A DNA stretch of 64,000 nucleotides. It comes from Chitinophagaceae bacterium (GTDB lineage Bacteria; Bacteroidota; Bacteroidia; Chitinophagales; Chitinophagaceae). The notes beneath the pieces were generated by a model, which saw nothing but the letters and a program-made list of their open reading frames with translations, searched no databases and was not told the DNA's origin. A program made the position numbers and the translations under genes. The DNA is taken from the NCBI GenBank assembly GCA_947454235.1, contig CANGIY010000001.1:372001-436000 (forward strand). Reading direction: 5' to 3'. Positions 34,014 to 46,241 of this stretch are shown in pieces. Position 1 is the stretch's first letter; every line of letters starts with the position of its first letter.

Positions 34014-35045
34014 TTAATCTTGCATTACTGCTGCTGCAGCGTGCCTGGGCGCGTATTTACCAACACTTTCGGCTATTGCTTTAATGTGGTCGGGAGTGGT
34101 GCCGCAGCAGCCGCCTACCATGTTCAGCCAGCCATTTTTAGCCCATTCTTCAATAATTTCAGCAGTTTGTTCAGGTGTTTCGTCATATTCACCCATGGCA
34201 TTGGGTAGTCCGGCATTCGGGTAGGCACTTACATTGCAGGTTGATATGCGAGCCAGCTCTTTGATGTGCTGGCGCATGTCTTTCGCTCCCAATGCGCAAT
34301 TGAAACCTATACTAATAGGTTCTGCATGTTTTACCGAAACATAAAAAGCCTCCAAAGTTTGCCCGCTGAGCGTTCTGCCGGAAGCGTCGGTGATAGTGCC
34401 TGAAATCATGACTGGCAATTTCTCCTTTCCTGTGTTTTTGAAGTAGGTATTGATAGCGTAAATGGCAGCTTTTGCGTTCAGCGTGTCAAAAATGGTTTCT
34501 ATTAAAAGTATATCAACACCGCTATCTACCAGTCCCGATATTTGTTCAGTGTAGGCATTGGCAACTTCATCAAATGTAACTGCTCTGTAACCCGGGTTGT
34601 TCACATCGGGTGAAATAGAAAGCGTTTTATTCATAGGGCCAATTGCCCCTGCCACATAAAAGTCGCCATCGGGTTGGTTGGTTTCCCCTTTAAATCTTTC
34701 AATGGCTCCGCGTGCTATTTTTCCTGCTGCCACATTCACTTCATAGGCAAATTCCTGCATATCGTAGTCGGCAAGCGAAATCGATTGTGCATTGAATGTA
34801 TTGGTTTCAATGATGTTGGCACCAGCCCTCAGGTATTCTAAATGAATTTGTTCAATAATATCGGGGCGGGTGAGACAGAGGATGTCATTATTGCCCTTGA
34901 TGTCTTTGTGCCAATTCTTAAAGCGTTCACCGCGGTAGTCGGCCTCATTGAGCTTATATTGCTGTACCATAGTGCCCATTGCACCATCGATAATGAGTAT
35001 TTTTTTTGCGAGCGCGTCCTTTATTTTATGGCAGGTTACAGTCAT
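34014..35045 (-). CDS. metH: Homocysteine S-methyltransferase domain of methionine synthase (split MetH)
   Basis: About 343 residues comprising only the Hcy-binding domain: [33 protein letters not shown], and the zinc cysteines in [10 protein letters not shown] and [12 protein letters not shown]. Uses zinc to activate homocysteine; the methyl donor and cobalamin-binding domains are on another polypeptide in many Bacteroidota, and that gene is not in this window. The ATG at 35045 is preferred because the -7 box lies 30 bases upstream and the extra 29 upstream residues look non-coding. It converges on the TPR-PAS gene, 7 bases apart. Confidence 0.88.
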
Positions 35046-35074
35046 TTTTGGGTTTTTTGTTCGATTACCAAGTG

Positions 35075-35082
35075 CAAATTTA
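35075..35082 (-). promoter_or_regulatory. -7 element of the metH gene
   Basis: TAAATTTG on the minus strand (35082-35075) matches TAnnTTTG and predicts a leader of about 23 bases before the ATG at 35045. No convincing TTTG at -33. Confidence 0.45.
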
Positions 35083-35160
35083 AGGGGAATAAGTGTGGCG
35101 TGACGGTAAAAAATGCTGAAAGTATATTGCAAATGATATTTTTTTATACCTTAGCACTTG

Positions 35161-35816: not shown

Positions 35817-37697
35817 ATGAGGTATCTATTTCTACTTTTTGCTTTCGTGTACTTTTTACCATCAGGCTTCAGTCAACCCTATTACATAACAACAATAGCA
35901 GGTAATGGTACAAACGTAGAAAATGGGAACGGTGGGATGGCAACTTCGGCTGGTTTGCAAACTGGAAATCCATCTGTTCCAGATAAATATGGAAATATTT
36001 ACTTGGCTACTCGTTGGGTTAATAATACAGTTAGAAAAATTGATGCTTCTGGGCGTATTACACATTTTGCAGGTGATGGTACTGCGGTTTCGGCAGGCGA
36101 TGGAGGACCTGCGTCAAGTGCGAGTCTGAATGATCCATTGTGGGTTTTGACGGATGATTCAGCAAACGTTTACATTGTTGAAAATCTTGGATGCAGGGTA
36201 CGTAAGGTAGATTACCGTACAGGTAGAATTTCCACTTATGCTGGAAATGGTGGTTCCACATTTTCGGGAGAAGGTAGACCTGCTTCGGCAACCAGTTTTG
36301 GGTATATCACAAGTATGGCATTTGACAGTCATGGCAATGTTTTGCTATGTGCTAATAACGGATATATAAATAAAATCGACAAGGCAACTTCGATTGTTTC
36401 AAATATTGCTGGTAACGGGCGTTGCGTAAGAAATGTTTCTTCATCTGGTCCTGCTACCGCGGATAGCGGTTGCTATATTTATGTTTGCGTGGATAGGCAT
36501 GATAATATTTACACAAGTGATTTGACTTTGATTAGGAAAATTGATTCAGGTACAAATTTTATTCATACACTGGCAGGCTCGCTGGATACGAGTTTTGCAT
36601 ATGCAGATAGTGTACCTGCCACCAACGCACATATAGAAATGTACGACATAAATAGTGATTCGTTCGGTAGAATTTATTATTCTGACGTACTACGATTGAG
36701 AACGAGAATGGTTGATACAAATGGATATGTATATACAATTGGGGGAAATGGTATTCGCGGTTATTCTGGCGATGGCGGTCCAGCAATAAATGCCAAAATT
36801 TACGATCCATTATCCACAGTTGTTGGAGCTTGTGGAGAAATTTATATGAATGATGCAGGAAACTACAGAGTTCGAAAAATATATAAAGAGTATTTACCTA
36901 ACATTTCGATATCTTTAACGAATCAAGCATCGACAACGGAAACAGGTGTTGTGCAGTTTTGTAGCCGGTACCCAACAACCTTACATGCGTTTTATTCAAG
37001 AGGCGGGCCTTCGCCTGCTTTTAGGTGGTACATTAATGGTGCGCCTATAACTACTAGCTTACCGTATTATACTTTTACGCCTAACAGCGGAGATAGTGTA
37101 AGGTGCGAAATTGTGAGTGATTTGTACTGTGTCACAAATCGTGTTGCTTCAAGTAATTCAATACAATTTATAATTGATACTTTAAGCCCTGTAAGTGTTT
37201 CATTAAGTGGCATCGCTGGTGCTGCAATAGGCGATACAGTGCATTTAAATGCTACCATTACTGGTGCAGGTAGCAGCTATACCCTTAAGTGGTACAACGG
37301 CGATAGCCTGTTTGCTACTACCACCACACCTACAGTACAATATGTAAAAACACGAGCTATTGATAGCATTACTGTAGTACTTACCAGTACCGCCCGTGGT
37401 TGCTACGACAGTACAGGCAGCCCCATAAAAACCATTGTGCGCTACAACACAAGCGTACCTGTAGTAACTACTGCTGCCAATGAAATATGGCTGCAGCCCA
37501 ACCCTGCACAAACAGAAATACAAATAGTTGCGGGTAACGATTGGGAACAACTTGTAGTTACTGATGTTTCGGGGCGGGTCATGTACCGCGAGAGCAATCA
37601 ACAACACCGTAGTACTCAGCTTAATATAGCATCGTGGCCTAAAGGCTTGTATTTTGTACATACAGGCACTGTGGCAGGTAAGTTTTTAAAAGACTAG
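35817..37697 (+). CDS. T9SS-secreted NHL-repeat protein flanked by direct repeats
   Basis: 626 residues from ATG 35817 (a TTG seven codons upstream is in frame but gives no better peptide). Signal peptide to about residue 20, then five or six NHL-type propeller repeats (about 20-360) with phrases like TIAGNGTNVENGNGG, HFAGDGTAVSAGDGGPA, TYAGNGGSTFSGEGRPA, YTIGGNGIRGYSGDGGPA. An Ig-like section (about 370-545) and a type A sorting domain follow (LQPNPAQTEIQIV, VTDVSGRVMYRE, WPKGLYFVHTG). Role: probably binding or structural, on the cell surface. The gene is flanked by the 35648/37843 repeats. Confidence 0.82.
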   Translation: MRYLFLLFAFVYFLPSGFSQPYYITTIAGNGTNVENGNGGMATSAGLQTGNPSVPDKYGNIYLATRWVNNTVRKIDASGRITHFAGDGTAVSAGDGGPASSASLNDPLWVLTDDSANVYIVENLGCRVRKVDYRTGRISTYAGNGGSTFSGEGRPASATSFGYITSMAFDSHGNVLLCANNGYINKIDKATSIVSNIAGNGRCVRNVSSSGPATADSGCYIYVCVDRHDNIYTSDLTLIRKIDSGTNFIHTLAGSLDTSFAYADSVPATNAHIEMYDINSDSFGRIYYSDVLRLRTRMVDTNGYVYTIGGNGIRGYSGDGGPAINAKIYDPLSTVVGACGEIYMNDAGNYRVRKIYKEYLPNISISLTNQASTTETGVVQFCSRYPTTLHAFYSRGGPSPAFRWYINGAPITTSLPYYTFTPNSGDSVRCEIVSDLYCVTNRVASSNSIQFIIDTLSPVSVSLSGIAGAAIGDTVHLNATITGAGSSYTLKWYNGDSLFATTTTPTVQYVKTRAIDSITVVLTSTARGCYDSTGSPIKTIVRYNTSVPVVTTAANEIWLQPNPAQTEIQIVAGNDWEQLVVTDVSGRVMYRESNQQHRSTQLNIASWPKGLYFVHTGTVAGKFLKD

Positions 37698-37778
37698 AAA
37701 AAATGTAGCTAATCGTGGGGTCTTCTACGCTTGGGTGGCGGCAAGTATCCGACCTGCCGGTGCAATTTTGTTGTTACC

Positions 37779-37797
37779 GGGCGTAAGCCTTACTCCC
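37779..37797. repeat. 19-base palindrome with the same frame as the direct-repeat palindrome
   Basis: GGGCGTAAGCCTTACTCCC has GGG/CCC ends and a GTAAG-C-CTTAC core, the same 19-base architecture as GGGCAAATGGCATTTGCCC but with different core bases, as if the stem were kept while its sequence changed. Confidence 0.6.
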
Positions 37798-37842
37798 CTA
37801 CATTCTCGCATTAAAAATGACCAATCAAAAAATAATCCCCTT

Positions 37843-37890
37843 GTAGGGGCAAATGGCATTTGCCCTGTATCTCAACCATATAAAATACAC
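37843..37890 (+). repeat. 48-base direct repeat, right copy
   Basis: Second copy of 35648-35695, one mismatch over 48 bases, same orientation; 2.2 kb apart. Its palindrome is GGGCAAATGGCATTTGCCC at 37848-37866. Confidence 0.9.
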
Positions 37891-37900
37891 CAATCATCTG

Positions 37901-37944
37901 GGCGAAGTTTCCTTCGTCTTACCATTCAGGAAGCATCTGCTTCC
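37901..37944. repeat. Two short hairpins beside the right direct repeat
   Basis: GGCGAAG-TTTC-CTTCGTC (37901-37918, one G-T wobble) and GGAAGCA-TC-TGCTTCC (37929-37944). Both are 16-18 bases, no T run after them. Confidence 0.55.
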
Positions 37945-37980
37945 GAAATACAATATCCAGACAGGCTGGCGTAGCCAATA

Positions 37981-38424
37981 CTATTCCAGTTCCTTGAACA
38001 TAAACACGTATTGGTCGACTTTATAATAGTCGTTGGAGATATAGAACTCGTAGGCGGGCATGAGTTTGTTGGTCATAAGTGTGATGGTAGTGACATTGTT
38101 GGGGCGACAAATGTTGGTTTCGCAATGGCTCATTAATTGTTTCCCAATACCCTGTCCGTGGCGAGAGCCATCAATAAAAAGTTCATCAACAAAAAACTGT
38201 TTGCCTGTCCACCAGGTCTTGAGCTTCCCAAAAAGCACACCACACACAACACCATTGTCTTCTGCAACCATACCTACAAAATTGGGTGCACCAATGTATT
38301 CTTGTAAATATTGAGCAGCCCCGGCAGCTTTCCATTGGTAGTTCCATGGCATTTTGTTGTATGCCGACATAAATATCGCTACGCAACTATCCAGGTCGCT
38401 GCTTTGGTATGGTCTTATGGTCAT
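37981..38424 (-). CDS. GNAT-family N-acetyltransferase coupled to the NRPS-like gene
   Basis: 147 residues from ATG 38424, which overlaps the NRPS-like stop codon as ATGA. GNAT fold: TIRPYQSSDLDSCVAIF at the start, QFFVDELFIDGSRHGQGIGKQLM containing the acetyl-CoA loop (R-x-x-GQGIG), and YEFYISNDYYKVDQYVFM at the end. Transfers an acyl group from a CoA thioester, usually to an amine. The tight overlap suggests it acts on the product or pathway of the A-PCP-TE enzyme, an inference. The longer frame upstream lies inside the NRPS-like gene and is rejected. Confidence 0.85.
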   Translation of the reverse strand: MTIRPYQSSDLDSCVAIFMSAYNKMPWNYQWKAAGAAQYLQEYIGAPNFVGMVAEDNGVVCGVLFGKLKTWWTGKQFFVDELFIDGSRHGQGIGKQLMSHCETNICRPNNVTTITLMTNKLMPAYEFYISNDYYKVDQYVFMFKELE

Positions 38425-41102
38425 TTTATAAAAGGTTGATTGGCTTCGTCGAGTGCTTGTTGCACCGCCCTTGCAAGGCTGGTTACATTGGGAGGGAAAA
38501 ACATGGTTTTGTGGTCGCCCGGTACATCGTGTACTTTCACTCCGCCACGGGCATAGGCGCGCCATCCCAGGCATTCAAAGTCGTCGACGAAATAAATGCG
38601 TTTCTGTGCCTTGAACAGATGCAACGTTCCGGTGAAGGGCTGCATATCGTAGTTGTTGAGGGCTGCAAAATGCTTTTGGTTTATTTTTTCCAGCAGTAAG
38701 TGTGTGCCTTCAAGCGTAGGAGCGTCTTTTTTTCCGGCTGCTATCAGGCGGGCTTCTTTTTTGCGTTCGTATAGTGCTTTTTGGTATTCAAGGGTTTCAT
38801 CGGGTGATGCAAAGAGCGATTTTGTAATAAATAATGCCTTTGGTAACTGCCTGCTTATTTTTTTGAATATCGTTTGGCTGAGCGGCTTCTTGTAAAACAG
38901 ATTAGAGGCGTCGGTGTCAAAAATGCCCAGCAAAGAAACTTCTTTCCCGGCTGTTTCCAGTTGCTTTTTCATTTCTACTGCCACATATCCCCCAAACGAA
39001 TATCCCGCCAGCGCATAAGGCCCTGAAGGGTAGTGCTTGGTGATTTCTGAAATGTAGTGTGCCGCCAACTCTTCCATTTTGTCAAACGTTTCCGATTTGC
39101 CGTCAAGCCCCAAGGGTTGAATGGCGTAAACAGGTTGTTCTTTATCCATGCAATCGGCAAGGTTGCGGAAGTTGGAAAAATTGTAGCCATCTCCGTGTAT
39201 AATGTACAACGGTATTTTGCTGCCCTCTGTTTTTATGGGCACTACCGATCTAAACACTTCCTGAGGTGTTTCTTTCTCAAGGAACGCAGCAAATGACGCG
39301 ATCGTATTATGCTTAAAAATGGTATTGATGTTCACTTTTCTGTTGAACAGTGCTTCCACTTCTGCCAGCATTTGCACAGCGAGCAACGACTGCCCGCCCA
39401 GGTCGAAGAAATTATCGTTAATGCTTATTTCTTTCACCGAAAGCACCTGTTGCCATATTGCAGCAATTTGTTTTTCGGTGGTTGTGCCGGGTGGAATATG
39501 TTCGTTGCCTGTTCCAGCCATATTAATTTCCGGCAGGGCATTTCTATCTATTTTCCCGTTGGGATTAAGGGGTAGTGCTTGTAGTTCCATCCATAAACCG
39601 GGCACCATGTAGTCGGGCAGTTTGCGCCTGAGAAAAGACATGAGCGCATCTTTATCAAATCGCGGCTTGGGTACTATATAGCCCATTAACCTGTTGAGCC
39701 CATCAATTTTACGGGCGATGACTACTGCTTGGTCAACAAACTTATACTGGCGTACAACACTTTCTATCTCTCCCAGTTCAACCCTGAACCCACGTATTTT
39801 CACTTGTTGGTCTTTCCTGCCCAAAAATTCCATGTTGCCGTCAGGCATCATTCTGCCAAGGTCGCCCGTTTTGTACATTCTGCCGCCGCATGCGTCATTG
39901 AAAGGGTCTTTGATGAATGCAGCGTCCGTTTTTTCTTTGTCATTGGCGTAGCCGGCAGCAACACCTACGCCACCAATATATAATTCGCCCTGTTCGCCTG
40001 CGGGTACAGGGGCCAGTTTGTCGTTGAGTATGTAGAACAAGTTGTTGTCAATGGGTTTGCCGTAAGGTATGCTCTTCCATTGCGGGTCAACATATTCAAT
40101 AGGAAAATAGTTGGACCATACTGTAGCTTCGGTTGCTCCGCCCAGGCTAATCACTTTTGCATTGGGGAAGAACTTTTTGATTCTCTCAGGTAGATTGACC
40201 GGAATCCAGTCACCACTTAAGAAAACCACTTGCAGGTCGTTTTGTGTGAATTCAGTGTTTCTTGCTTCGAGTCCGCGCACCAGAAAATCGAGTGTAGTAG
40301 GCACCGAGTCCCAGAACGTAATTTTCTTTTCCTGCAACATCACTGCAAGGCGTGCCAGGTCGTAGACCTCAGCGGTATCGGCTATTTCTATAGTTGCCCC
40401 GGCAAAAAGAGTCCCGAAAATATCATACACCGAAAGGTCAAAACAAATAGAAGTAATGAACATAAGTCGGTGCCCCGGCGCTATGTTGTAGGTTTTATTC
40501 ACCCACTGGCACAGGTTAAGCACCGAATGGTGTCGAATCATCACCCCCTTAGGATTGCCTGTTGAACCCGATGTATAGATGGTATATGCGAGTTGATTGG
40601 GGTCAATTGTTACTTCAGGAAGTTGGTCGGGCTGCCCATCGAAATCTAAATTTCTTAAATCAATCACCCGTACGTTACCTGTTGACGTAGGGAAATTATA
40701 ATCGGTATTAGCAATTAATACTTGAATGCCTGAATTCTGAATGATGTACTCCTGCCTTGGTGCCGGGTATTCGGGGTCTATAGGTACATAGGCGGCTCCT
40801 GCCTTCAATATGCCCAACATGCCCGTAACAATATCGGGGCAGCGGGTTACCAATAAGCCTACATTATCGTTCGGTTGAACGCCATTTTGAATGAGGTAGT
40901 GAGCAAGTTTATTTGAAAGTAAATGGAGTTCGCTGTAGGGAATTGATTTGTCTTTGTACGAAACGGCAATACAATCCCTGTACGTAGTTGCAGCTACATC
41001 AATTTCTTTGACAATGTTTGATGTAGCCTTATATGCAACTATAGTATTGTTGAAATCGGAAAAATCGGGCGTTTTGCTCGTTGCATTGATTCCTTGCTCC
41101 AT
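38421..41102 (-). CDS. NRPS-like A-PCP-TE enzyme, predicted cysteine-specific
   Basis: 893 residues, one module with no condensation domain. Adenylation domain (about 30-530): YTSGSTGNPKG (177-186), YKTGDLGR (410-417), Lys517 in NGKIDR. Carrier domain: DNFFDLGGQSLL with the phosphopantetheine Ser572. Thioesterase (about 630-890): AGYSFGG with Ser702, FDTDAS and PGDHKTMF as probable acid and histidine. The ten pocket residues, aligned by eye to PheA, are D222, L223, Y226, D265, F294, S296, L320, V328, W329, K517; seven match the textbook cysteine code DLYNLSLIWK, and SGDWIP and SLGGATEA also occur in cysteine modules. Product unknown. Confidence 0.85.
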   Translation of the reverse strand: MEQGINATSKTPDFSDFNNTIVAYKATSNIVKEIDVAATTYRDCIAVSYKDKSIPYSELHLLSNKLAHYLIQNGVQPNDNVGLLVTRCPDIVTGMLGILKAGAAYVPIDPEYPAPRQEYIIQNSGIQVLIANTDYNFPTSTGNVRVIDLRNLDFDGQPDQLPEVTIDPNQLAYTIYTSGSTGNPKGVMIRHHSVLNLCQWVNKTYNIAPGHRLMFITSICFDLSVYDIFGTLFAGATIEIADTAEVYDLARLAVMLQEKKITFWDSVPTTLDFLVRGLEARNTEFTQNDLQVVFLSGDWIPVNLPERIKKFFPNAKVISLGGATEATVWSNYFPIEYVDPQWKSIPYGKPIDNNLFYILNDKLAPVPAGEQGELYIGGVGVAAGYANDKEKTDAAFIKDPFNDACGGRMYKTGDLGRMMPDGNMEFLGRKDQQVKIRGFRVELGEIESVVRQYKFVDQAVVIARKIDGLNRLMGYIVPKPRFDKDALMSFLRRKLPDYMVPGLWMELQALPLNPNGKIDRNALPEINMAGTGNEHIPPGTTTEKQIAAIWQQVLSVKEISINDNFFDLGGQSLLAVQMLAEVEALFNRKVNINTIFKHNTIASFAAFLEKETPQEVFRSVVPIKTEGSKIPLYIIHGDGYNFSNFRNLADCMDKEQPVYAIQPLGLDGKSETFDKMEELAAHYISEITKHYPSGPYALAGYSFGGYVAVEMKKQLETAGKEVSLLGIFDTDASNLFYKKPLSQTIFKKISRQLPKALFITKSLFASPDETLEYQKALYERKKEARLIAAGKKDAPTLEGTHLLLEKINQKHFAALNNYDMQPFTGTLHLFKAQKRIYFVDDFECLGWRAYARGGVKVHDVPGDHKTMFFPPNVTSLARAVQQALDEANQPFIK

Positions 41103-41174
41103 CTATTGTTGACTAAAAGATGTGCTAAAAGTAAAAAAAATGAAACGCTTTACGAATGATTTTGAGCATTATTA

Positions 41175-43133
41175 TTAGGGGGCTACTGTAATTATTTTTG
41201 AAAATACTGTACCGTTTCTATTTTTCACTAAAACGGTATAGTTGCCATATTTTAACTCTGAAACATCAATAACCATGTTGTTAGAGTGCTTTTCTGTTTT
41301 CAATTCTTTAGATATAATAATTCTTCCATAAACATCAGTCAGGGAGAGTTGATAGTCTGTTAGTTGTTCGCTGTTGAATTGAATTGTAAATCGGTCTTTA
41401 GTAGGGTTTGGGAATATAGAAATATCAAAATTAGAAGCCATTGCAATTGCCGAATTTGTATTTCTTATCAGCGGCATACCCTTGCTGTTTAACACCCTAC
41501 CAGTGCGGGCGTCAAGCAACATTACAATCACTTTAATTTTTCTTGCCTTCCATTCGGTTTTGAGGGTGTCATTGAATGTCATTGTGTACACCGAATCGAG
41601 GTGCATGGAATGGGGGAGTGTAGAACTTGAATCTCCGTTAACAGTTGGAATTATGGAACGTGCTACATGGTTGAACACCATCAGGCTGTCAGGCACGTTG
41701 TCGGGTTGTGCGTTATAGTTCAGTCCGCCATAAGAAAGTAGAAACGCTGTGTTACCGCTGTAGTAATTGTGTTGGTACCATGCATTGCCTCTTCCATACA
41801 CACTGTCTTCTGCCATCACCATTACTAATTTGTAATTGCCTTGTAAATTAATAGCCGGGGTTACCTGCACATCAACTTGAACATTGTTGCCTGTCAAACG
41901 CGGTGCAATGGACAAATCAGCAAAACCAAATCCGTCTTTAAGTTGGTTGTAGTTATTGAAAATTTGGTCGGGGTCGTTTACAAAACTGCGATCGGGCGTC
42001 ATGGCGGGTAAACCATTGGTGAAGTAATATCCGCGCATGTAGTAATCATAGGCGGGGATAGTCATTGTGTCGGCGTAGTGTACGGCAATAAGATTGACAC
42101 TATCGCCGTGTATGTCGTTCATAGAGTCCAAATACACCATGCCTCTTGGGCACCATCCGCATGTGATTCCGGTGCCATCTTCAAAAAGCAATTGTTTCAA
42201 AGGTTTTCTGGTAACAGTTACCAAGGTGTCGTTTGTAATTGTATCGTTTGTATGCAAATCGTCACCTGCCAGTTCTACCCAAACTTTGAGTGGGTAGCTG
42301 CCTGCGGTGGTGGGAAACGTGATAGGAATACTGTCTAAAAATGTAGCGTTTGAAAACGGCGGAATATTACAATTGATGCGTTCGCTGACAGTAGTTCCGC
42401 CGTTGAAAATGTAATGGACTAAAAAATTAGTTACGGGGTCAGCTCCATTATTATTCACCTTTCCGCTCACATTTACGGTTGAGCCAGCTAATCCGTATGC
42501 AAATGAAGTGCCGGTCATAGGCGAAATAGAAGCGAGTCCCAGCTCAAACCTAGGGTAAACAGAGACTGTGATATTATCAAATGCAATTCCTGACATGTGG
42601 TTCCCGGCATCGGTGTATTTAAATGCTATACGCACATCGCTAAATCCGTTACAGCCGTACAAGGGTAACTGAAAATTGTCCCACCAACCTATGGGTATTT
42701 GCGAAATAATGCGCCAGCTAAAGCCGCCATCCAGTGAAATCTCAATCCACGCCCTTTCTGTGTCTCTGCCCCTGCTGATGGGTAAAGAGAAAAAATCGAA
42801 TTTAAGAACTGCCAGATGGCTGGTATCTAATCCTGATAAGTTCAATGATGGCATGAATAGGCGTACATTGGTATTCATTGCAAGGGCAGCAGTATCATCG
42901 TTCAATGCCACATACTTGGTATGGGCGCCCGGAAGAAAGTGGGCTGAATTGAACGAGGTGCCACATTTAAACCCAACCGAATCGTTGGGTGCAACTGATT
43001 GCGACCAGCCTGTTGGTAGCGATGAAGAAGTGGTAGATTCAAAATCTTCAGCGAAAATGGTTTGGGCGGTCACTTCGCCGGAAGCCATCAAAAAAGAAAA
43101 TAAAAATGCGAAGAGAGAGGACAGTTTATTCAT
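41175..43133 (-). CDS. T9SS-secreted Omp28-related protein with a thioredoxin-like CGWC motif
   Basis: 652 residues: signal peptide, a jelly-roll-type domain (FAEDFESTTSSSLPTGWSQ, about 25-200), an Ig-like spacer, then an Omp28-type thioredoxin-fold region (about 305-500) opening with LFEDGTGITCGWCPRGMVYL, and a type A sorting domain at the end (IFPNPTKDRFTIQF, LTDVYGRIIISKEL, LKYGNYTVLVKN). The CGWC pair could be redox-active or structural. Probably exported through the type IX system to the surface. Confidence 0.8.
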   Translation of the reverse strand: MNKLSSLFAFLFSFLMASGEVTAQTIFAEDFESTTSSSLPTGWSQSVAPNDSVGFKCGTSFNSAHFLPGAHTKYVALNDDTAALAMNTNVRLFMPSLNLSGLDTSHLAVLKFDFFSLPISRGRDTERAWIEISLDGGFSWRIISQIPIGWWDNFQLPLYGCNGFSDVRIAFKYTDAGNHMSGIAFDNITVSVYPRFELGLASISPMTGTSFAYGLAGSTVNVSGKVNNNGADPVTNFLVHYIFNGGTTVSERINCNIPPFSNATFLDSIPITFPTTAGSYPLKVWVELAGDDLHTNDTITNDTLVTVTRKPLKQLLFEDGTGITCGWCPRGMVYLDSMNDIHGDSVNLIAVHYADTMTIPAYDYYMRGYYFTNGLPAMTPDRSFVNDPDQIFNNYNQLKDGFGFADLSIAPRLTGNNVQVDVQVTPAINLQGNYKLVMVMAEDSVYGRGNAWYQHNYYSGNTAFLLSYGGLNYNAQPDNVPDSLMVFNHVARSIIPTVNGDSSSTLPHSMHLDSVYTMTFNDTLKTEWKARKIKVIVMLLDARTGRVLNSKGMPLIRNTNSAIAMASNFDISIFPNPTKDRFTIQFNSEQLTDYQLSLTDVYGRIIISKELKTEKHSNNMVIDVSELKYGNYTVLVKNRNGTVFSKIITVAP

Positions 43134-43245
43134 GGCAGTGCGGTTTGTTTTTTTAAAGATACACTATTATACCCCCCTTTGTCAATAACTTATACCGAAA
43201 GAGTGTTTTTAATTAACAATTCATTTGCAAAAGTAGAGACCTCTT

Positions 43246-44766
43246 TTAATGGATTTTCTGGCTGAATAGTTCGTTGTCGTCGTCGTGACTGTCGTCGTTT
43301 TCCTGAGCCTTTTGGATGATGTTTTTTACCCTGCCATCAAGGTCATTTACAGCTCTTGCGATTTCCGGCCAAAAATCCTGCATGAATTCTTCATTAGAAA
43401 GGTCGTCCATAATGCCCATCACACCAGTAATTCTAGTGAGTGGTTCGCGCACCTGATGTGCATTATATTGAATCAGTTCTCTCAGTTTTTTGTTGGAATC
43501 AGCGAGGTCGTGGTTGGCTACTGCAAGTTCGTGGGTGCGTTGTTCAATCACTATTTCCTGTTCATTTGCCAGTTTAGAGATGATCTTGTTGTCCTTTCGT
43601 TTTTGAATGAAGGCATAAAAGGCAATTCCGGCAATTATAATCATAAGTGCAACGCCGCCAATCAAAGCTTTTTTGGCACTTTGTTCCCTCATGAGGCGTT
43701 CGTTGTTTACGGCATCTTTTTTATCCTGGTCGGCTTTAGCAAGTGCTTCTTTTTTGTCGAATTCAAACTGATACTGTTGCTCAATCATCTTTCTGTCGCT
43801 TTCCATGTTGTTCACACTATCATTGGCAGCCACATATAGTTTATAGTAAACAAGTGCATTTTTATAGTCTTTCAACGATTCGTACGACTGGTAAACAACC
43901 TTGCTACAATCTTGAGTCAGTTTATTGGAATTGATGGTTTTATTCATGTCCAACGCCTGCAAGTTATATTTAATGGCATCTTTATAGTTGCCCATCAATT
44001 GGTATAAATGCCCCAAAGAATTGTAAGAGCCTGCTATGTACAGTGGTTCATTCATCTCCTGCCTAATGTTGAGCGCTTCTTTATAGCATTTCTCGGCTTC
44101 TTTAAACTCTTTATTTGCTTCTTTAATATCTCCCACATTTTCTACTGCAATTGCCAGAAACTGCTTATCGCCACCATTCATAAGTGTGTCGCGTGCCCAT
44201 TGGTAATATTGCAAAGCCTCATCGAGTTTGTGCTGATTGAAGTATGCCAAACCAATATTATTCAGGCACCCACCAACGCCGCTCTTATCGTGTAGTTCAT
44301 TTTTAAGCTTCAGGGCTTCCTTGAAGTTTTTCAAGGCTTCGTCGTAGTTGTGTTTGTAGTTATAAACGTTGCCAAGGTTATTATGTATTCTACCCATACC
44401 CACCTTGTCATTGAGTTCCTTGTACAACTTCAAGGCACTGAAATATTGTTGTAAGGCTTCAGCGTAGTTGCCTTTTACCTTCATACCCAGTCCTAGCGAA
44501 TTATAAGACGCTGCTATTTGTCTCTTGTTATTCAATGCTGTTGCAATGTCAAGTGATTTTCTGGCATAGGCAATTGCAGAATCGGCGTTCATATTTGCGA
44601 AGGTTCTGGAGCAATCCAAAAGCACTTTTAGGCGGGAAGAGTCTGGTGTTTTGTTTGTCGCAAGAAAGTTGCGTAGAGAATCGATTCTAGGCTGCCCCTT
44701 GAGTTGGGCGAGTGATGTATGATGTGTTACAAATGCAAAGAATATAAATAGCCATATCTTTTTCAT
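43246..44766 (-). CDS. TPR membrane protein with an orphan H-box
   Basis: 506 residues. Signal peptide (FAFVTHHTSLAQ), about seven TPR units (about 45-320; for example NLGNVYNYKHNYDEALKNFKEALKL), a membrane segment near 365-385 (ALIGGVALMIIIAGIAFYAF), a short coiled coil, and IQYNAHQVREPLTRITGV, where His437 fits a HisKA phosphoacceptor. Only about 70 residues follow, ending in an acidic tail; no ATPase domain. It resembles 32027-34006 but without the PAS domain. TPR-containing sensor kinases of this build are common in Bacteroidota, but the catalytic part is missing here. Confidence 0.75.
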   Translation of the reverse strand: MKKIWLFIFFAFVTHHTSLAQLKGQPRIDSLRNFLATNKTPDSSRLKVLLDCSRTFANMNADSAIAYARKSLDIATALNNKRQIAASYNSLGLGMKVKGNYAEALQQYFSALKLYKELNDKVGMGRIHNNLGNVYNYKHNYDEALKNFKEALKLKNELHDKSGVGGCLNNIGLAYFNQHKLDEALQYYQWARDTLMNGGDKQFLAIAVENVGDIKEANKEFKEAEKCYKEALNIRQEMNEPLYIAGSYNSLGHLYQLMGNYKDAIKYNLQALDMNKTINSNKLTQDCSKVVYQSYESLKDYKNALVYYKLYVAANDSVNNMESDRKMIEQQYQFEFDKKEALAKADQDKKDAVNNERLMREQSAKKALIGGVALMIIIAGIAFYAFIQKRKDNKIISKLANEQEIVIEQRTHELAVANHDLADSNKKLRELIQYNAHQVREPLTRITGVMGIMDDLSNEEFMQDFWPEIARAVNDLDGRVKNIIQKAQENDDSHDDDNELFSQKIH

Positions 44767-45125
44767 TATAAGTCATGGTGTTTTGGTCGCACAATATAGG
44801 GATAACAATTCGGTTGTCTAAACTTTGAGAAGGCATCACAAACTTGGTATTGGTTGGTGTTTGTTGAAGATCATCATTAAATTGAATTGTTCTCATGTCG
44901 CATGTGGGTACAGCCACGCGGTTAGTTGCCAATAATCTATTAATTCTGAATTCAGTGTTTTTTGTTGAATTTAAGCTTCGAAACGCTCGTGCCTATTTTA
45001 AACATCAAAAAGTTTTGGACGCGTTGTGCTCCATTCACAAAACATGTACAGGACAAAAGGAGATTCTTTGAATTTTTCAAGAAAAACATATAATTTACCG
45101 AATCTTTAAAAATGTCATAAAAATC
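44767..45125. other. Gene-free stretch upstream of pntAA
   Basis: No coding potential, hairpin terminator or RNA gene recognised. It should contain the divergent promoters of the TPR/H-box gene and pntAA, but no full TTTG-N19-21-TAnnTTTG match was found; the sequence is AT-rich close to the pntAA start. Confidence 0.5.
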
Positions 45126-46241
45126 ATGATAGCTGGAGTTTTAAAAGAACAGTCGCCCGAAACACGTGTTTCATTGGTGCCGGAAGTAGTTGCAGCGCTG
45201 GTAAAGCTGAACGTTACTGTATGGGTTCAACAGGGAGCCGGCGAAACCGCATTTTTTGACGATAAATCGTACACCGATGTAGGTGCGGTGATTAAATCGG
45301 CAGAGGAAATACGTTCACAAGCCGATTGGGTACTTACCATCCATACATCAAATGTTGGTACTGTGAAAAAAGGAGCTGTGTTAACAGGGGTGTACCAGCC
45401 TTTGTTCAATGCGCCACAAATGGCAAGCTGGGCCAGCGCGGGTTATACCGTGTTCAGTATGGATAACATACCTCGTACCACACGTGCGCAGGCAATGGAC
45501 GTATTAAGTTCGCAGGCAAACATTGCGGGCTATAAGGCGGTATTGCTGGCAGCGTTCCAGTACAGCAGGTATTTTCCTATGTTCATGACGGCAGCAGGTA
45601 GTATTCCTCCGGCTAAAGTCCTGATTTTAGGTGCCGGTGTTGCTGGATTACAGGCTATCGCAACCGCCCGTCGCCTTGGCGCAGTGGTTGAGGTGTTTGA
45701 TACACGCCCGGCTGTAAAAGAAGAAGTAATGAGCCTTGGCGCTAAATTCGTTGAGGTTGAAGGTGCAGCCGATGCTTCAAAAGCAGGTGGATATGCTGTT
45801 CAACAAAGCGAAGAGTTTCAGAATCGCCAACGGGATAAAATTCATGAGCACGCTAAAAAATCTGATATCATCATCACAACGGCACAAATACCGGGTATGA
45901 AGGCACCGATTTTGATTACAAGGGCAATGATTGAAGACATGCGTGCAGGTTCAGTGATTGTTGACCTTGCATCGGTGACGGGGGGTAACACCGATCTCAC
46001 TGAAAATGATAAAACAGTGATGCACAACGGTGTGGCTATTATTGGTAATTCAGCTTTGCCGTCAACAACACCTTCTGATGCCAGCAAGCTCTATTCAAAA
46101 AACGTTTTGAATTTCGCTAAGCTGTTCATCAACAAAGAAGGGGGCATTGATCTCAATTTTGAAGATGATATTGTGAAGGGTACATGTATCGCCCACAATG
46201 GTGAAATAGTAAATGACCGCGTGAAAAACCTCATCAAGTAA
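45126..46241 (+). CDS. pntAA: NAD(P) transhydrogenase alpha subunit, domain I (PntAA)
   Basis: 371 residues binding NAD(H). The segment KVLILGAGVAGLQAIATARRLGAVVEVFDTRP is the Rossmann fold shared with alanine dehydrogenase; RDKIHEHAKKSDIIITTAQIPG and VIVDLASVTGGN are typical. Together with PntAB and PntB it couples hydride transfer from NADH to NADP with inward proton flow. The alpha chain is split into two genes here, as in many bacteria. pntAB follows after 23 bases. Confidence 0.95.
   Translation: MIAGVLKEQSPETRVSLVPEVVAALVKLNVTVWVQQGAGETAFFDDKSYTDVGAVIKSAEEIRSQADWVLTIHTSNVGTVKKGAVLTGVYQPLFNAPQMASWASAGYTVFSMDNIPRTTRAQAMDVLSSQANIAGYKAVLLAAFQYSRYFPMFMTAAGSIPPAKVLILGAGVAGLQAIATARRLGAVVEVFDTRPAVKEEVMSLGAKFVEVEGAADASKAGGYAVQQSEEFQNRQRDKIHEHAKKSDIIITTAQIPGMKAPILITRAMIEDMRAGSVIVDLASVTGGNTDLTENDKTVMHNGVAIIGNSALPSTTPSDASKLYSKNVLNFAKLFINKEGGIDLNFEDDIVKGTCIAHNGEIVNDRVKNLIK

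Follow-up and report, generated by a model that had tools for sequence, protein, structure and literature searches.

Which task is left to a nonribosomal peptide synthetase (NRPS) enzyme that has no condensation domain? This question is raised by a stretch of 64,000 nucleotides from a Chitinophagaceae bacterium (GenBank assembly GCA_947454235.1, contig CANGIY010000001.1, positions 372,001 to 436,000), called the window here at its full length. In it, an enzyme made of one adenylation domain (A), one peptidyl carrier protein domain (PCP) and one thioesterase (TE) is followed by a gene for a GNAT-type N-acetyltransferase. The answer we tentatively favour, at a little below an even chance, is a two-gene thiotemplate unit for one amino acid, in which the A domain would load cysteine, the GNAT would N-acetylate it and the TE would release it or hand it on. 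The pair probably makes or attaches acetylated cysteine and not a peptide. NRPS-like enzymes for a single residue are a known kind; the conserved partner and the genomic context are what is unusual here.

The domain composition was established by Pfam, which matched AMP-binding, AMP-binding_C, PP-binding and Thioesterase in the 893-residue protein and, in the same scan, no Condensation domain; NCBIfam added TIGR01733 above its cut-off. With A, PCP and TE domains and intact catalytic residues, the protein belongs to the NRPS enzymes, and its N-terminus resembles the linker between condensation (C) and A domains. It does not qualify as a peptide-forming module, as neither a condensation nor a cyclization (Cy) domain was found in the protein or in its own genome. 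A preliminary description of the locus, made from the letters alone, had arrived at the same A-PCP-TE order and at the overlap of the enzyme's stop codon with the GNAT gene, and both agree with the Pfam and motif reading and with the TGA/ATG overlap read at 38421-38424. It had also named a condensation-domain gene close by, outside the window, as something that would change the picture. In the 4.17-Mb genome (47 contigs), a profile search gave no Condensation (PF00668) match at E<=10, and the window enzyme is therefore not part of a longer assembly line in its own genome, within reach of the Pfam condensation model. Two matches to the phosphopantetheinyl transferase (PPTase) superfamily (PF01648), for which the description had advised a look, are present in the genome, as are eight AMP-binding matches beyond the window enzyme. 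No Bacteroidota-type promoter pattern was found at 37000-45500.

Features of the A-PCP-TE/GNAT pair in the window (domain coordinates of the adenylation domain computed from residues)
Feature	Position	Strand	Details
NRPS-like A-PCP-TE enzyme	38421..41102	(-)	893 residues; from Pfam, motifs and relatives; apparent C-A linker at the N-terminus
Adenylation domain, code DLYDFSLVWK	39552..40997	(-)	residues 36-517; Pfam core 36-385, C-terminal part 445-517
PCP (thiolation) domain	39279..39470	(-)	residues 545-608; Ser572 in LGGQS
Thioesterase domain	38460..39200	(-)	residues 635-881; Ser702 (GYSFGG), Asp729, His864
GNAT N-acetyltransferase	37981..38424	(-)	147 residues; start ATG overlaps the enzyme stop as ATGA

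Relatives were collected at several taxonomic distances. In the same genus, genome G001 encodes an enzyme 66% identical on a contig that ends inside the TE, and its contig C637 starts with the remaining TE followed by a GNAT 67% identical to that of the window. In genus g70, probably Mucilaginibacter or close to it, 37 of 149 genomes matched the enzyme at E<=1e-190; one of these (G534) has the glycine-like pocket code DILQLGMIWK and was set aside, leaving 36 genomes with a DLYD code. A second genus of that family (G757, G765, G805) and two more genera of the window's own family (G912; G976 and G1009) also carry the enzyme. A phylum-wide sample of 395 genomes yielded 15 matching genomes including the own one at E<=1e-140, and no GNAT at E<=1e-15 outside the own genome. 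Among the codes read there, DLYD occurred only in G154 (contig C32) and in one module of G304, and the others were mostly DILQ or DIVQ (glycine-like) with a few DLTK, DAEE and DAAH. The G304 module (L074, G304:C1:606270-608060) reads DLYDFSLVWK and is part of a 2164-residue open frame; its genome, from another family, yielded no GNAT match at E<=1e-15. This code is also found in an assembly-line NRPS module of Fibrella. In a tree built by a quick method and drawn with midpoint rooting, from which the G304 module was left out, 44 loci and Fibrella formed one group (SH-aLRT 100).

The identification of the substrate starts from ten pocket residues, assigned by motif: D222, L223, Y226, D265, F294, S296, L320, V328, W329 and K517, or DLYDFSLVWK. 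The preliminary description had read the same ten residues and predicted cysteine. Only seven of the ten positions are identical to the classical code DLYNLSLIWK. When the pocket region was compared with solved structures, module 2 of BmdB came first (E 2.4e-39), with FmoA3 and PchE next. Ten residues line the cysteine pocket of PchE according to an excerpt of a review (PMC11253843). Mapped to the window enzyme they are F221, D222, L223, S296, G297, A323, T324, V328, W329 and K517, nine of them identical, the tenth (I846 in PchE, V328 here) being a conservative exchange; by these contacts the domain is of the cysteine type. This contact set is FDLSGATVWK (36) or FDLSGATIWK (7) in all 43 DLYD loci read, and it is unchanged in G805 (L154), whose natural code is DLYNFSLVWK with Asn at position 278. 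The contact residues and this natural variant strengthen the cysteine prediction, and L-cysteine has good support as the predicted substrate.

A second line of evidence is the conservation of the pair, on which the preliminary description had made its reading depend and which was borne out. It was counted in 47 genomes searched for the GNAT, namely those of the 44 DLYD/DLYN loci, G304 (readable code, n=45) and two with contig-cut enzymes (G522, G526), with Fibrella excluded. The GNAT is present in 37 of them: it directly follows the enzyme gene in the same orientation in 27, is in the same fetched region but not adjacent in seven (L128, L129, L131, L133, L134, L135, L137), and lies elsewhere in the genome in three (G520, G553, G540). 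Within g70, 36 of the 149 genomes gave a GNAT match at E<=1e-12; a strong set of 31, all above 120 bits, was left once five weak matches (G449, G463, G488, G547, G580; 50-104 bits) were dropped. Strong GNAT and DLYD enzyme coincide in 28 genomes (31 versus 36 of 149; p 7e-20, or 3e-16 with all 36 GNAT genomes, both values too small owing to the relatedness of the species), and pairing by chance is excluded. Three strong-GNAT genomes lie outside the enzyme set: in G522 and G526 an A-PCP-TE cut by the contig end adjoins the GNAT, and G478 is a true exception without the enzyme. In G912, a PPTase gene (PF01648; L155:6571-7206) stands directly upstream of an extended A-PCP-TE and its GNAT, so that this locus is a self-contained three-gene unit. 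A fusion of A-PCP-TE and GNAT was considered and dismissed, as the frames of about 1100 residues carry an N-terminal extra and in 17 of 17 loci compared the GNAT has a gene of its own.

The partner belongs to the GNAT family by Pfam (above cut-off for PF13673/PF13508/PF00583), by its conserved G92 and G94, and by a structure model (pLDDT 91) with its Foldseek matches; a longer open reading frame of 197 residues is merely the 147-residue gene extended upstream. GNAT enzymes have an acetyl-CoA motif R/Q-x-x-G-x-G/A. The invariant columns among the relatives include P26 W27, K69-W72, D80 E81, G92 and G94. Among the 50 Foldseek matches listed are DpA, which acetylates polyamines, and numerous aminoglycoside N-acetyltransferases, and an amine is likely to be the acceptor because of this resemblance. 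A search for the gene on plasmids returned 12 records, all below 60% identity (25-28%) and none close.

Several observations weigh against a cysteine-acetylating pair. At the pocket, the window enzyme has Asp at position 278 and Phe at 299, outside the cysteine set of Asn278 and Leu/Met299 given in an excerpt of a paper (PMC12283262). Queries with the whole protein or the whole A domain place the gramicidin synthase LgrA first and BmdB behind it; LgrA owes this rank to two A domains whose scores are added together. A similar small residue could be the substrate instead, for instance 2,3-diaminopropionate with its ammonium bound by Asp265, or serine or alanine. This alternative agrees with the Asp that 43 of 44 loci have at 278, and in PosA-like and some ornithine domains the amine of a side chain is bound by acidic residues of the code according to an excerpt of PMC10522769. 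We consider it improbable, as positions 278 and 299 are absent from the cysteine contacts of PchE in the review excerpt (PMC11253843), which also states that discrimination between cysteine and serine is not well understood. Furthermore, the natural Asn278 member L154 is sister to an Asp278 member (L152), both having a GNAT, and serine-code domains encoded at the same loci have DVWHFSLIDK. Among recurring neighbours, of which ten cluster examples were scanned with no search aimed at diaminopropionate synthesis, no gene for making an amino acid was recognised.

On the side of the partner, the GNAT was undetected in ten of the 47 genomes, eight at E<=1e-12 (G154, G473, G578, G491, G506, G525, G562, G512), G304 at the threshold given above, and G976 as viewed over 18 kb, and is therefore not strictly required. 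Nine of these are placed in the tree: six group together (clade support 91), G506 and G491 are sisters, and G976 is by itself. One candidate explanation was that multimodular forms dispense with the GNAT because the amine is used; in g70 it accompanies none of three such forms against 28 of 33 others (p 0.008), but the three share one clade with GNAT-less single-module forms and are not three independent events. G304, with its module in a 2164-residue frame and no GNAT, would agree with the idea as well, which is tentative. The substrate of the GNAT cannot be read from its fold: the top Foldseek match is an uncharacterised integron cassette protein, a histone acetyltransferase is also among the 50 listed, all matches are at 12-21% identity, and NCBIfam gave no family name. 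The GNAT might stand outside the pathway, disarming a toxic product in self-resistance or acting on something else while merely travelling with the enzyme. Its aminoglycoside N-acetyltransferase neighbours in fold agree with this, as do a self-resistance N-acetyltransferase (PamZ) described in an NRPS/polyketide synthase cluster in the excerpted PMC9054821, and an ABC transporter gene that lies beside the enzyme instead in the GNAT-less subgroup G154, G473 and G578. Such a role seems quite improbable to us, since the pair is retained as neighbours in most of the counted genomes while the surroundings vary, and no recurring exporter cluster was recognised at GNAT-bearing loci in the part of the clusters scanned.

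The origin of the unit can be traced in the relatives. At their N-terminus, 24 of the 44 loci start with 200-257 extra residues, which in five of six single-module proteins scanned correspond to the later part of the Pfam Condensation model, where three of them start at 187 or 191 (model length 456) and L118 and L131 align only in parts; the sixth extension (L155) gave no Pfam Condensation match at E<=0.01. L121 has a full condensation domain, with its HHxxxDG motif, by arithmetic, at about model position 138. As the extra stretches begin behind it, they are, on these alignments, half condensation domains without the catalytic half. Nonsynonymous divergence (dN) was higher in the extra stretch in seven of seven pairs (0.097-0.933 versus 0.052-0.304, 1.9 to 4.3 times), and the stretch is absent in 17 loci at five separate places of the tree by eye, including the window's group. 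Several modules are encoded at each of three g70 loci, which have condensation domains of the ordinary HHxxxDG type and the code orders X-Cys, X-Ser-Cys and Cys-Ser. By these comparisons, the lineage appears to derive from a C-A-PCP-TE module, the simplest direction being from a peptide-forming module to a single-residue enzyme. Two other ideas were discarded. An N-terminal lobe of the condensation domain encoded by the upstream gene is contradicted by several half-C loci with other recurring genes upstream, for example a 242-residue cluster-7 gene; cysteine heterocyclisation is contradicted by the missing Cy domain and by the three multimodular g70 relatives, which show HHIISDG (ordinary C) before the last module.

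Could the enzyme then be a decaying NRPS remnant without function? The half condensation domains, their absence in scattered places and an in-frame TAA in the G579 copy are what one would expect of decay. Nevertheless, the explanation is hardly conceivable, as the catalytic motifs are intact, the enzyme is conserved in two families, and decay between the window and its sister species G001 is confined to third codon positions. Identities at the three codon positions were 0.71/0.82/0.40 for A-PCP-TE and 0.75/0.81/0.41 for the GNAT, and both genes are therefore under purifying selection; between L111 and L115, dN/dS (nonsynonymous to synonymous) was 0.034 for the enzyme and 0.048 for the GNAT.

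The surroundings of the pair suggested a further function. In at least 19 of 34 g70 genomes (the 36 DLYD genomes without G540 and G512), the enzyme has a Poly_export (PF02563) gene no more than 10 kb away, compared with 0.57 expected at random places, the binomial p value being overstated because the species are related. Of seven exopolysaccharide-type gene clusters (Poly_export, Bac_transf, Acyl_transf_3, Polysacc_synt, WecG, Wzy_C and a Wzc-like ATPase, named by Pfam on one example protein each), at least one is held by 24 of 35 fetched g70 DLYD loci, a count made without background control. These data raise the possibility of glycan decoration, in which the TE moves cysteinyl or N-acetyl-cysteinyl groups onto nascent exopolysaccharide or a lipid-linked repeat to give a thiol-bearing polymer, and the window copy would be one outside an exopolysaccharide operon. 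Three multimodular relatives in g70, with L121 beside the same export genes, are in line with it, and glycine-code A-PCP-TE relatives (L078-L082) likewise lie among polysaccharide-type genes by eye. What makes it doubtful are the 11 of 35 g70 loci without such clusters (L118, L120, L123, L124, L125, L126, L132, L138, L140, L141, L143), several of them contig-cut. In addition, no exopolysaccharide gene was recognised beside G001, G579, G757, G765, G805, G912 and G976 (mostly by eye) or among ten window proteins scanned with Pfam, and the single Poly_export match of the own genome is on another contig. We know of no cis thioesterase that acts on a glycan. The minimal conserved unit is thus two genes, with a frequent but not universal exopolysaccharide context. 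A wider version, which we judge unlikely, would see a glycan-modifying machine that arose from a module by loss of condensation: A-PCP-TE and GNAT would put N-acetyl-cysteinyl on Bacteroidota exopolysaccharides to form a thiol-bearing, disulfide-crosslinkable slime, with short Cys/Ser peptides (multimodular relatives) and glycine (sister group) as extensions.

For the two-gene thiotemplate unit, the following course is proposed. The A domain would adenylate L-cysteine and load it on its own PCP, for which a PPTase is needed and two candidates exist in the genome. The GNAT would acetylate the alpha-amine from acetyl-CoA, most likely with the residue still on the carrier, where attack by the residue's own amine would be blocked, in keeping with an enzyme that forms no peptide. 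The TE would then release N-acetyl-cysteine or pass N-acetyl-cysteinyl to a small acceptor or a glycan. No peptide bond should be formed by the unit, since the condensation domain was lost in the lineage. A final point on the opposing side is that the TE could hydrolyse, cyclise, dimerise or transfer. Cysteine use in vivo, the N-acetylation, its timing and the acceptor are what we infer. An acylated cysteine metabolite would be the leading product. Its chief rival, to be taken seriously because the pair sits among exopolysaccharide genes in many relatives, is transfer to a polymer; for the cysteine-modifying tag also raised in the preliminary description, nothing emerged on either side.

Whichever product is made, the lineage documents, with replication, the stepwise loss of condensation (full C, half C, none) from an NRPS module that has an acetyltransferase as its partner, and it connects NRPS enzymes of a single module with exopolysaccharide operons. 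With a polysaccharide as acceptor, this would be a new bacterial route to thiols on surface polymers; with a free product, it would be a two-gene route to N-acyl-cysteine.

Some further observations were made on the way. The glycine-code loci L078, L079, L080, L081 and L082 encode standalone A-PCP-TE proteins of about 880 residues (codes DILQLGMIWK, DILQLGMVWK, DIVQFGMIYK) next to flippase-, polymerase- and chain-length-like genes by eye. A protein type of about 204 residues (KSNPxLKKxVHWM...), perhaps a hexapeptide acyltransferase by eye, occurs beside the cysteine-type pair in G1009 (L157:3452-4066) and in the glycine-type clusters L079-L082. Another glycine-code A-PCP-TE (L044, G016) lies near two LanC-/LanB-like lanthipeptide genes by eye. 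Other species of the window's genus (L046, L047, L052) have a two-protein NRPS of about 2190 and 1740-1756 residues with a glycine-code A domain split by about 420 residues and an adjoining flippase-like gene; a siderophore idea drawn from such clusters was abandoned, as their second proteins have glycine codes and the own genome has no C domains. In the own genome, a 1312-residue open frame (L035, L199; G000:C27:19822-21534) has the code DMEHNG-VTK, similar frames near this length matching it in several genomes of the genus. The code of PosA is DMEHNGTVSK in an excerpt of PMC10522769, and a Pls/PosA-like poly-ornithine-type synthetase is possible. Within the window, a homocysteine S-methyltransferase family gene (34014-35132, Pfam) lies about 2.8 kb from the pair, a link to sulfur metabolism that is probably coincidental. 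An NHL neighbour shared with L077 (29% identity) was dropped as a sign of linkage, as two more proteins like it are encoded close to the window.

Among known systems, BmdB (bacillamide) and PchE (pyochelin) are alike in the adenylation domain, BmdB being the best pocket-region match and PchE sharing nine of ten contacts. They are Cy-A-PCP type modules in peptide lines in the excerpts of PMC11253843 and PMC8795117, whereas the window enzyme has no Cy or C domain, a TE directly after the PCP and a GNAT partner. No description of such an A-PCP-TE/GNAT pair, and no paper joining Mucilaginibacter adenylation/thioesterase enzymes with exopolysaccharide, was found in the literature covered, which left out most subscription papers. 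AlmE and DltA belong to systems that are not known to contain a TE. Like them, the window enzyme would activate one amino acid on a carrier with no peptide formed and possibly a cell-surface glycan as acceptor; it differs in the amino acid and in the fusion of carrier and TE, and this TE would act in place of the AlmEFG/Dlt-type membrane or outer-membrane aminoacyl transferase. AlmE serves to put glycine on lipopolysaccharide and DltA D-alanine on teichoic acid, as summarised in the review excerpt (PMC11253843).

The fungal non-reducing A-T-TE synthetases of quinones and furanones also consist of A-T-TE (T, thiolation) without a C domain. The pockets of such keto-acid enzymes are not known to carry the amine-binding Asp235; D222 is present in the window enzyme and in 44 of 44 loci, which does not fit a keto-acid synthetase. 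The fungal enzymes join aromatic alpha-keto acids according to an excerpt of PMC9047271, whereas the window enzyme combines an amine-binding Asp with a GNAT. An indigoidine synthetase is not found here either, as Pfam places no domain between AMP-binding (36-385) and AMP-binding_C (445-517). The indigoidine synthetases IndC/BpsA are monomodular, use one amino acid and have a TE. In IndC, an oxidase is inserted in the A domain (excerpt of PMC8949500), and none is present in the window enzyme. The C-A-T-TE modules EntF and AB3404 (review excerpt, PMC11253843) share the A-T-TE order and homology and presumably represent the ancestral form, from which the window lineage differs by a condensation domain that was lost or halved.

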